From Demequina sediminicola (lineage in GTDB: Bacteria > Actinomycetota > Actinomycetes > Actinomycetales > Demequinaceae), in contig NZ_BBRB01000002.1 of assembly GCF_000975055.1 (NCBI RefSeq), positions 310,001-374,000 of the forward strand: a stretch of DNA of 64,000 bases, given 5' to 3'. The number at the start of each line of letters is the position of its first letter. The stretch's first letter is position 1. The position numbers were made by a program, and so were the translations under genes. A model generated the notes under the pieces. The model was not told the DNA's origin, ran no database searches, and saw only the letters and a list, made by a program, of their open reading frames with translations. Of the stretch, positions 5,484 to 8,398 are shown one piece after another.

Positions 5484-6796
5484 GCGCTCAGCATGCCCTT
5501 CCACATGTCAGGGAAGTCCGGCATCGTTTTGGCTGTGGTGCCGACGTGCACGATGTCGATACCGTCCACCGCCAAGCCAACAATCGCGGCAAAGGTCGCC
5601 ATGCGGTGATCGTGGTAGCTCTCCATGGTGGCGGGCCGGATGCCCTCGGAGGGGAATCCGTGGAAGCTGAGCGAGCTCTCGTGCGCCGTGCACTGGCCTC
5701 CGAACCGCTCGACTTCGGTCGCGATCGCAGCCAAACGGTCCGTCTCGTGTCCGCGGAGATGGCCGATGCCCGTGATGGTCGAAGGCCCCTCAGCCAGCGC
5801 ACACAGTGCGGCAATGGTGGGTGTGATCTCGCCAGCGGGGGAGAGATCCGCATCGATTCCGGCGATACCGCCGTGGGCGAGTCCGGGTGCCGACACCGTG
5901 AGCACACCGTCGTCACGTGTGCAGGTGGCTCCCATGCGCTCGAGGATCTCGGGATAGAGTGCGCCCGGTTGGGTAGTCTCGGCAGGCCATCCGGGGATGC
6001 GGACGGTGCCACCGGCCACGAGCGGCGCCGCAATGAATGGGCCCGCATTCGATAAGTCGGGCTCCACGCGGACATCACCCAGCTCGAGTGAACCCGGGTG
6101 GACAACCCACGTGCGTTCGTCAGGCTGTTCGACGTGTACTCCGGCATTGCGCAGCGTCTCACAGGTCATGTCGATGTGGGGCAGGCTGGGCAGGGTCTCT
6201 CCTGTGTGGCGAACAGTGAGGCCGTGGGGGAGTCGCGGGGCAACCATGAGGAGCGCGGTGACGAACTGCGAACTCGCTGAGGAGTCGACGTCGACGGACG
6301 CTGCAATCTGCGCAGGGGGTGTCACTGTGAACGGCAGGGTCCCGCGGCCATCATCGTCGACTGTGGCGCCGAGCGCACGCAGCGCGTCGAGTAGCGGCCC
6401 CATCGGGCGCACGCGCGCCTCGGCGTCGCCGTCAAAGGTGACAGGGGCATCGGCGAGCAACACCATCGGTGGCACGAAGCGCATCACGGTGCCCGCCAGG
6501 CCGGTGAAGACATGGCCGCCACCCTTGAGGGGCCCCGGGTTGACGGTCCACTCGGTGCCGGCATCATCAATGGTGACGCCGAGTTCACGTAGCGCCGCGA
6601 TCATGAGGTCTGAGTCGCGGGAACGTAGCCCACCTCGGATGGTGACGGGGGACGATGCCAGGGCTGCGAGAGGCAGGAACCGGTTGGTCAGCGACTTGGA
6701 GCCGGGAACATCAACAGTGGCGTCAATCGGCGTGAGTGCACGGGGTGCGCGCCACAACTGGCCGGGGCCAGTTCCTGAAACTGTGCCGGTGGTCAC
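5480..6796 (-). CDS. aroA: 3-phosphoshikimate 1-carboxyvinyltransferase (EPSP synthase)
   Basis: A 438-residue enzyme of the shikimate pathway that transfers enolpyruvate from PEP to shikimate 3-phosphate. Seen: VPGSKSLTNRFLPLAALA near residue 30 (substrate-binding Lys/Ser/Arg), LAGTVMRFVPP (the EPSPS motif usually G-N-A/S-G-T, here GLAGTVMRF) and C-terminal HLRGHETDRLAAIATE and DHRMATFAAIVGLAVDG. Length and motif order are standard. The GTG start overlaps the TGA of doxX, and the stop overlaps rsgA, so the three genes are coupled. Neighbouring aroA-rsgA-hisN beside an ECF sigma/anti-sigma pair is also known from mycobacteria (established synteny). Confidence 0.94.
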   Translation of the reverse strand: MTTGTVSGTGPGQLWRAPRALTPIDATVDVPGSKSLTNRFLPLAALASSPVTIRGGLRSRDSDLMIAALRELGVTIDDAGTEWTVNPGPLKGGGHVFTGLAGTVMRFVPPMVLLADAPVTFDGDAEARVRPMGPLLDALRALGATVDDDGRGTLPFTVTPPAQIAASVDVDSSASSQFVTALLMVAPRLPHGLTVRHTGETLPSLPHIDMTCETLRNAGVHVEQPDERTWVVHPGSLELGDVRVEPDLSNAGPFIAAPLVAGGTVRIPGWPAETTQPGALYPEILERMGATCTRDDGVLTVSAPGLAHGGIAGIDADLSPAGEITPTIAALCALAEGPSTITGIGHLRGHETDRLAAIATEVERFGGQCTAHESSLSFHGFPSEGIRPATMESYHDHRMATFAAIVGLAVDGIDIVHVGTTAKTMPDFPDMWKGMLSA

Positions 6797-7323
6797 TTCT
6801 TGGAAGCGGTGAGCGCGCCACCACGGCGAGTTTTCTTGGCCTCAACCGTGGTCTTGCCCTTCTTGGCATCGGCCTTGACCTTCTTGGCCTGAGCCTTGGT
6901 CTTCTTAGCCTTGGCACGTTCCTTGCGGCGAGGGTTGTGTCCTGCTGAAGCGGCAAGCAAGGTACCGCCGAGCAGTGAAACGTTGCGCAGGAAGAACTCC
7001 ATCTGCTCCTCGCGCTTTGCCTCATCAGTCTCGGTCCAGAAGGGACGTCCGGCCACGACCGTGGCGGCCGTCAGCCCGGCGAGCACCAACCCGGCGGTCC
7101 GGGGCGTACGCGAGAGCGCAAGGACACTCGCCGCGACGATGGTGGCAGCACCATGAACCTTCACGATGTCAGTGGTCTTCACACCGTCGACGCCCGCCTC
7201 AGCCAGCGCAGGCTCGATGACAGGTGCGGCGCGTTCGGCACGCGTCTCGGGCTCGAGAACAGACTGCACACCTCCGTAAACGAACCAGGTGGCGAGCAGT
7301 GGCCGGGCGAGAACTCTAAGCAT
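6793..7323 (-). CDS. DoxX family membrane protein with Lys/Ala-rich tail
   Basis: Residues 1-128 match the DoxX family: [25 protein letters not shown] followed by three further hydrophobic segments (about 55-75, 77-92 and 110-125), so four membrane helices. DoxX-like proteins are membrane partners in redox and sulfur stress handling in actinobacteria. The last 47 residues are unusual: 15 Lys and 5 Arg with Ala/Thr, in KAKK- and AKK-type repeats that recall histone-like DNA-binding tails. The gene is the first of the aroA operon and is divergent from sigR across a 240 bp gap, which suggests a thiol-stress link but does not prove one. SD is weak. Confidence 0.8.
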
Positions 7324-7369
7324 GAACTAAACCTACCAAGACCGGCGCTCTGCGTCAGGTGTTCGCGGG

Positions 7370-7395
7370 GGAATGATGCGGGGAAGTGCGGCGTT
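7370..7395 (+). promoter_or_regulatory. SigR-type autoregulatory promoter of sigR
   Basis: GGAAT at 7370-7374 and GTT at 7393-7395 are separated by exactly 18 bases. This is the consensus recognised by SigR/SigH-type ECF factors (GGAAT-N18/19-GTT). It lies upstream of sigR in the correct orientation, so SigR probably drives its own gene. Transcription would begin near 7402. Confidence 0.8.
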
Positions 7396-7563
7396 ACACG
7401 TCGTATGAATGTCACGGAAACCGCCACACACCCCCGGGCTGGGAACGTGGCCTCATCCATCGAGGTTGACGTCACGCAGCGCACACTCCGCCCGAGCACC
7501 GTCCCAGGGCGGTCTCCGAATGCCCGCCAGAGTGACCCGGTGGGTGGCGTAGGCTCGGGTGCC

Positions 7564-8154
7564 ATGAGCGATTCAACGTTCGACTTCGAGACAGACGCGC
7601 TGTCGTTTATGGACCAACTTTACGGGGCTGCTCTGCGACTGACACGTAATGGCGCCGATGCCGAAGACCTGGTGCAGGAAACCTATGCCAAGGCCTTTGC
7701 CGCACAGGACAAGTTCACCCCCGGGACCAACCTCAAGGCGTGGTTGTACCGGATTCAAACCAACGCCTTTATCAATACCTATCGCAAGAAAAAGCGCCAA
7801 CCCTTGCAGTCGGATGCCGAACAGGTTGAAGACTGGCAGCTCGCGGCAGCTGCTGAACACACCAGTTCCGGATTGGCCTCAGCTGAACAGCAGGCGCTGG
7901 ACAGTCTGGGCGATGCGGAAGTGAAGCAAGCGCTGAATGACCTTCCAGAAGATTTCAGAATGGCTGTGTACCTCTCTGATGTTGAAGGATTCGCCTACAA
8001 GGAAATCGCCGAGATCATGGATACGCCGGTGGGCACCGTGATGTCGCGATTGCACCGTGGCCGCAAACTACTCAGAGAACAGCTCGTGGATTACGCTGCC
8101 GATCGCGGATTCCGCGATAAGCGCCCTGCGGCAAAGATGGATAAGGGAGCCTGA
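7564..8154 (+). CDS. sigR: ECF RNA polymerase sigma factor SigR
   Basis: A 196-residue group 4 sigma factor. Region 2 (about 15-85) has [25 protein letters not shown] and [24 protein letters not shown], highly characteristic of the SigR/SigH thiol-oxidative stress group. Region 4 (about 120-180) has [42 protein letters not shown]. It is followed two bases later by its zinc anti-sigma factor RsrA. The ATG at 7564 gives the standard short form; TAGGCT at 7550-7555 could be a -10 for a leaderless short transcript. The frame is open far upstream and has an ATG at 7405, which would add 53 residues, like the longer SigR' isoform known in Streptomyces. Confidence 0.93.
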
Positions 8155-8155
8155 C

Positions 8156-8398
8156 ATGGCGGGTCAAGAATGTAGTGAAGCATTGGATCGTCTTTTCGAG
8201 TACATCGATGACGAGCTCCCAGCCGATGAGGTGCACCGGATCGGTGAACACCTCAAGACATGCCCCCCGTGTGAAGCCGAGCACCAGATCAAAGAGAAGA
8301 TCAAGGAGCTCACCTCGCATGCCGGAGGAGAGAGAGCACCCGATCAGCTCCGCGAGCGGGTACTTGCATCGCTGCGTGCAGTGCGCGAAGACGGCTAG
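8156..8398 (+). CDS. rsrA: Zinc-binding anti-sigma factor RsrA
   Basis: An 80-residue ZAS-family anti-sigma factor that binds SigR in the reduced state and releases it when its cysteines form disulfides. The key residues are Cys6, His32, Cys36 and Cys39 (HLKTCPPC). They have the same mutual spacing as Cys11, His37, Cys41 and Cys44 of Streptomyces RsrA, so zinc binding and redox switching should be intact. The ATG at 8156 follows the sigR stop by one base, which favours this start over longer in-frame ones that lie inside sigR. A bidirectional terminator follows 120 bp downstream. Confidence 0.94.
   Translation: MAGQECSEALDRLFEYIDDELPADEVHRIGEHLKTCPPCEAEHQIKEKIKELTSHAGGERAPDQLRERVLASLRAVREDG

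Follow-up and report, generated by a model that had tools for sequence, protein, structure and literature searches.

Two putative promoters of Demequina sigR, each with a start codon at or near the predicted 5' end of its mRNA

In the 64-kb stretch of the 2.46-Mb Demequina sediminicola genome analysed here (the window), sigR-rsrA appears to have two promoters, each of which would put a start codon on the mRNA 5' end or no more than about 2 nt from it. The upstream promoter, p2, is of the SigR-dependent type and would give a leaderless mRNA for a long form, SigR', and short SigR would be encoded by a nearly leaderless transcript from the downstream promoter, p1. As no strong Shine-Dalgarno sequence precedes the short-form ATG, the choice of promoter would largely be the choice of isoform, a reading that we consider likely.

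The start sites, the translation of both forms and the stress dependence of this switch are predicted here from the DNA. In unstressed cells, the housekeeping-type p1 (TAGGCT) would yield the nearly leaderless mRNA and, from it, short SigR, which RsrA would keep inactive. Upon thiol stress, RsrA would be oxidised and SigR freed, and p2 would fire. Ribosomes on the p2 mRNA, which would begin on the ATG at 7405, would then make SigR', longer by 53 residues. SigR' would amplify the stress response, and its lifetime, judged from that in Streptomyces, is probably short.

The sigR locus in the window

The short form (7564..8154, forward strand, 196 aa) is a SigR/SigH-family sigma factor, matching TIGR02947 with 313 bits against a cut-off of 251.55 from residue 6 onward; the long form (7405..8154, forward strand, 249 aa, stop codon at 8152-8154) scores 312.8 bits with the same family. 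The sigR product also matches the Mycobacterium SigH structure 5zx2 (E 5.6e-76). Directly adjoining sigR on the same strand is rsrA (8156..8398), encoding an RsrA-type zinc anti-sigma factor (TIGR03988, 71.5 bits, cut-off 62.5) whose translation contains HxxxCxxC and matches the RsrA structure 5frf (E 5.7e-10). A divergent open reading frame of 176 aa lies at 6793-7323 on the minus strand; no NCBIfam or Pfam family matched it. TAGGTT (7330-7335, minus strand) is found 6 nt before the ATG of this frame, which may also be leaderless.

An earlier examination of the same DNA (the sequence-only reading) had placed GGAAT at 7370 and GTT at 7393 with a spacing of 18 bases, and the sequence agrees: GGAAT is at 7370-7374 with a G before it, and 18 bases separate it from GTT at 7393-7395, so that p2 as a whole is GGGAAT-N18-GTT (7369..7395, forward strand). 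The ATG that was said to add 53 residues in an open sigR frame is likewise there (7405-7407), with the frame open from it to the short-form ATG at 7564, a distance of 159 nt or 53 codons (extension 7405..7563, forward strand). The locus thus has, as expected of a two-isoform loop, a longer in-frame start with a SigR-type promoter ahead of it. In the canonical numbering of the -10 element, the G of GTT is position -12, and the base at +12 from it is the transcription start. Transcription from p2 is therefore predicted to begin at the first base of ATG 7405, not near 7402 as had been suggested, and the 12 nt between the G of GTT and the ATG leave no room for a leader.

The complete arrangement, GGGAAT-N18-GTT-N9-ATG, occurs once in the 64 kb as compared with 0.00 times in 100 shuffles. 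The bare promoter motif (GGAAY-N18-GTT, 6 occurrences versus 2.04 expected) is much weaker evidence than motif plus geometry. The open frame extends far 5' of p2 too (the ORF runs from 7153), and 34% of composition shuffles likewise have 52 codons without a stop; thus, an open frame in a single genome proves little, and the case rests on relatives.

Start codons of both forms in relatives

For the comparison, sigR loci were oriented, the best upstream GGAA[TC]-N17..19-GTT was taken, and start codons were tabulated according to how far they lie from the G of GTT. The 44 Demequina genomes searched gave 43 SigR loci, with G041 dropped for a paralogue-level match (6.1e-29). The named set from other genera was drawn from 584 confirmed candidates, of which the best 80 were taken; L045-L050 were dropped because they come from the same genomes as Demequina loci, and 68 of 74 were counted, the frame not being found by pattern in L053, L057, L058, L080, L108 and L115. 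The survey set comprises 126 loci in 49 families and 109 genera. Genomes with a match (151 of 158 and 138 of 149) supplied 125 of these loci, 46 being the non-Demequina loci among the matches listed and 79 hand-picked for genus spread; of the Streptomyces-type loci, the set takes in L125 and excludes L126-L133, and it also omits the window (L134) and Demequina repeats (L164-L173). The named and survey sets share genomes (identical N-termini are found in, for example, L065/L137 and L084/L144), and their counts are not additive as independent observations.

A p2-type promoter is present at 43/43 Demequina loci, 64/68 named loci (best 80 of 584) and 115/126 survey loci. At 42 of the 43 Demequina loci, an in-frame sigR start codon (ATG or GTG) follows 11-13 nt from the G of GTT (+12 at 30 loci, +13 at 10 and +11 at 2). 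The same is true of 39/68 named loci (best 80 of 584) and of 50/126 survey loci, leaving 65 of the 115 promoter-bearing survey loci without such a start. When a start codon stands at +12, it is in the sigR frame at 30/31 Demequina, 36/36 named (best 80 of 584) and 40/42 survey loci. The next three bins (14-16, 17-19 and 20-22) hold 2, 2 and 3 loci in Demequina, 2, 3 and 2 in the named set (best 80 of 584) and 3, 8 and 5 in the survey. Higher counts are seen at 23-25 in Demequina (15 loci, mostly the valine codon GTG inside VTTTV), at 2-4 in the named set (12 loci among the best 80 of 584, with GTTGTG) and in single bins between 26 and 52 in the survey, which reach 15 loci and are in part Shine-Dalgarno-led starts. 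The conserved distance from p2 to the start codon supports the earlier suggestion of a nearly leaderless long form.

The remaining Demequina locus, L044, belongs to G011, a genome with a completeness score of 50%; the promoter and an ATG at +12 are kept and the sigR frame behind them is broken, perhaps through sequencing errors. Another group within the genus (L020, L022-L029 and L033) has GTG long starts at +13 and a near-constant N-terminus, VTTTVE/D..

The putative -10 element of p1, TAGGCT (7550-7555, forward strand), is 8 nt 5' of the ATG at 7564. A TANNNT-to-ATG spacing of exactly 8 is found at 41/43 Demequina loci, which in this sense carry the sequence pattern of the separate short-form promoter that belongs to a two-isoform loop, and at 26/68 named (best 80 of 584) and 48/126 survey loci; any other single spacing is found at 3 loci at most. 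The fixed T, A and T are set by the search pattern, and the inner bases vary (TAGGCT 67, TACGCT 15, TACCCT 9, and others). The residues V-G-S, V-R-S or L-G-S before the short methionine are there because the -10 element is read as codons. By eye, p1 has no recognisable -35. The proposal that TAGGCT could drive a leaderless short form is supported by this spacing, which points to a near-leaderless p1 transcript. The geometry would place the transcription start on or a few nt from the start codon at both starts, as is usual for leaderless genes. Leaderless p2 and 8-nt p1 geometry are not associated with each other (39/89 versus 25/73, p 0.26).

Of 115 such short ATGs, none has a Shine-Dalgarno sequence reaching -7.5 kcal/mol when a 12-nt window is used. 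With a 17-nt window, anti-Shine-Dalgarno pairing at the short start ranges from -9.8 to +0.8 kcal/mol in 42 Demequina loci (mean -3.9; window locus -5.0), and the mean at the rsrA start is -8.8 kcal/mol. These 17-nt values suggest possible weak ribosome entry at the short start, so that some short form may be made from p2 mRNA.

The extension as protein and rival readings

Behind these long starts, the sigR frame contains no stops in 968 Demequina, 2140 named (best 80 of 584) and 2521 survey codons, as against 40+9, 101+25 and 126+34 stops, respectively, in the two remaining frames. Stops in close relatives had been named in advance as what would count against a translated extension; 42/43 Demequina loci have none, the frame of L044 being broken as described above. 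Extension length in the 42 Demequina loci is 15-33 residues, with 53 in the window, and the changes are always of whole codons.

Third-position bias, put forward in the sequence-only reading as a check, is present in close relatives and is modest. Codon positions 1/2/3 carry 30, 34 and 62 substitutions when 18 close, disjoint pairs are compared (p 0.0007), and the bias fades with distance, to 92/98/131 in 24 pairs (p 0.016) and to a non-significant 198/202/238 in all 31 pairs (p 0.10); within Demequina (13 pairs) the numbers are 53/47/71 (p 0.065). When 63 overlapping pairs from this genus are compared, the in-frame pN/pS is 0.61, the two other frames give 0.88 and 1.46, and the sigma core has 0.13. 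G+C by codon position is coding-like in 40 loci of other genera (0.727/0.649/0.825); a coding signature of this kind was rejected for Demequina (0.678/0.751/0.705 in 42 loci). Together, the substitution, pN/pS and G+C results indicate that the frame is kept and that its amino acids are weakly constrained, and the extension appears to be read as a loosely constrained protein segment.

The N-terminus may be an exception to this weak constraint. The motif [LV][ED]R[PTQ] is found in residues 2-16 of 12/42 Demequina, 11/89 other leaderless and 15/75 Shine-Dalgarno-led long forms, where shuffles give 0.2 to 0.5, although the counts are non-independent because they include related and repeated genomes, among them those common to the named and survey sets. 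Outside these residues it is absent from the other leaderless (2646 aa) and Shine-Dalgarno-led (1984 aa) extensions, and also from the remaining 67 aa of the Demequina extensions, which are too few to tell. The motif is possibly a degron or other tag of long forms; the 13-residue N-terminus in the window is without it.

The nearest relative, L003, has the same distance from p2 to the divergent ORF as the window and shares GTCAGGTGTT (counted by eye), so the 29 extra codons of the window were apparently gained inside the extension. The gained stretch, which relatives lack, carries a second SigR-like GGGAAC-N18-GTT (7441..7467, forward strand) without a start codon at +12, which may be a spare promoter or chance. 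Tandem promoter duplication was considered as the source of the longer extension and the second motif and was rejected, the similarity not being above that of shuffles (P 0.16).

Other readings of the locus can be weighed against these data. If p2 merely supplied more short-form mRNA, 7405-7563 would be an untranslated leader and its open frame accidental. Such a reading would fit the weak amino-acid constraint (0.61 in frame versus 0.13 in the sigma core), the Demequina codon-position G+C and the 34% of shuffles in which the window frame is open by chance. However, it would not lead one to expect stops to be missing from all three sets (named, the best 80 of 584, included) or nearly all +12 starts to be in frame where one third would be (30/31, 36/36 among the best 80 of 584, and 40/42), and the short ATG is without the strong Shine-Dalgarno sequence that a leadered mRNA would call for. 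We consider it improbable. That the long protein alone exists, with TAGGCT and ATG 7564 being neither promoter nor start, seems to us very improbable. The missing -35 would agree with this, and V-G-S could be conserved as protein, but the spacing of 8 recurs at 41/43 Demequina and 74/194 other loci (named, best 80 of 584, plus survey, which overlap) with other values hardly ever seen, the inner TANNNT bases vary (TAGGCT, TACGCT and TACCCT being the commonest), and the family match starts just past the short ATG.

A different question is what the extension does if both forms are made. It could alter binding of RsrA or of polymerase, or just record the promoter architecture, and have no part in degradation. 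Loose constraint, a length of 15 to 53 residues within one genus with no evident shared degron, and a sequence unlike the Streptomyces extension by eye are all in keeping with this idea, which we nevertheless regard as unlikely. The N-terminal motif exceeds shuffles in many long forms, and passages of PMC4921905 and PMC5472188 give the extended form of Streptomyces as a Clp substrate with a half-life of about 10 min. The reading preferred here is still that of two promoters and two isoforms, with a long form that is probably short-lived.

Known systems and wider distribution

The SigR/SigR'-RsrA loop of Streptomyces coelicolor, reportedly described by Kim in 2009, is like the Demequina locus in having a SigR-type upstream promoter, an in-frame longer form, a separate short-form promoter and rsrA downstream. 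In parts of PMC4921905 and PMC5472188, the two-isoform loop is treated as established in Streptomyces: SigR' is the product of a SigR-dependent promoter, with 55 (PMC4921905) or 58 (PMC5472188) extra residues, and the short form has a GTC start with AGGAGGTG as its Shine-Dalgarno sequence (from a passage of PMC5472188). Searching with this sigR Shine-Dalgarno sequence and GTC start of PMC5472188 gave Streptomyces-type loci (L125-L133) in 9 genomes when 396 of the phylum were covered; all 9 fall in one of the 237 genera, which is taken to be Streptomyces because the searched sequence was described from that genus. Their long forms begin MGxxxCP (9/9 loci), and their long ATG is 53-63 nt past GTT in 8 of the 9; at L125, the sole locus scored, the long start has a Shine-Dalgarno sequence of -10.7 kcal/mol.

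The long start of Streptomyces is therefore leadered with a Shine-Dalgarno sequence and its short start is a GTC with another, whereas both Demequina starts would be leaderless or nearly so, and a leadered long start with a Shine-Dalgarno sequence is absent from the window locus. Such a start is perhaps a trait of the Streptomyces version and not of the loop as such. Of the claim that the architecture is the same as in Streptomyces, the two-isoform logic stands and the manner of initiation does not; conservation backs a two-isoform architecture with a SigR-type autoregulatory promoter in the lineage, and what we see appears to be a mechanistic variant of the known loop. The suggested likeness in length to the Streptomyces extension of about 55 residues does not extend to other Demequina (15-33 residues). 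The window being an outlier in its genus, its 53 residues are probably a coincidental match, and homology between the two extensions was discarded, as no similarity is visible by eye.

The TANNNT placement is that of leaderless (TA-led) genes in Actinobacteria: portions of PMC3160421 describe a TANNNT some 12 bp 5' of the start codon, with 19.2% of genes on average being of this kind, and portions of PMC3898074 describe M. tuberculosis TANNNT elements centred 7-12 bp upstream of start sites without a conserved -35. Unlike ordinary TA-led genes, Demequina sigR would stack two such starts in one frame under two sigma factors. In passages of PMC4803200 and PMC4921905, M. tuberculosis SigH/SigE promoters have the similar consensus GGAAYR-N17-GTT, the sigE transcript from p1 is leaderless and a SigH-type promoter lies upstream of sigH; these passages do not describe a long isoform. 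Corynebacterium glutamicum sigH, for which part of PMC3489674 lists three mapped starts 22, 89 and 93 nt upstream, assigned to SigA, is a counter-example to universality of the geometry. Within the sections of open-licence literature covered, no description of a leaderless SigR' or of the two-start geometry was found, and an earlier one may exist; nothing was found there on a Demequina sigma factor with oxidative stress.

A SigR gene tree (FastTree, 231 rows, this gene alone) requires at least 23 changes between leaderless and Shine-Dalgarno modes over 196 scored loci, a rough figure with permissive Shine-Dalgarno scoring and no shuffled baseline; the energy cut-off that defines the Shine-Dalgarno-led class is permissive, and among 202 non-Demequina loci 23 are unclear. 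We tentatively offer a broader reading in which stacked leaderless promoters hard-wire the SigR isoform. Start-site selection alone would decide the protein, with no leader, Shine-Dalgarno sequence or shared ribosome entry; the arrangement would be widespread in Actinomycetia, with many exchanges with the Shine-Dalgarno version, and [LV][ED]R[PTQ] would be a possible degron of many long forms. Leaderless starts could also keep SigR' translatable when stress impairs ordinary initiation.

If so, the Streptomyces loop becomes a pattern readable from DNA across the class Actinomycetia, in which a sigma factor's own promoter writes a different protein start. Two SigR isoforms would be predicted in dozens of genera, and leaderless and Shine-Dalgarno initiation would seem to be swappable while the two-isoform logic stays. 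A single annotated sigR start may capture one of two proteins, and sigR would be a compact system for asking if leaderless translation matters under thiol stress.

Elsewhere in the genome, GGAAT-N18-GTT-N7..11-RTG is found at 11 distinct places (12 rows), as compared with 0 for the reversed pattern. Apart from sigR, five of these places (L271, L272, L278, L280 and L281) lead into an ORF of 62-379 aa whose start codon stands 10-11 nt from the GTT. These may be leaderless SigR targets, which may thus not be unusual in this genome.
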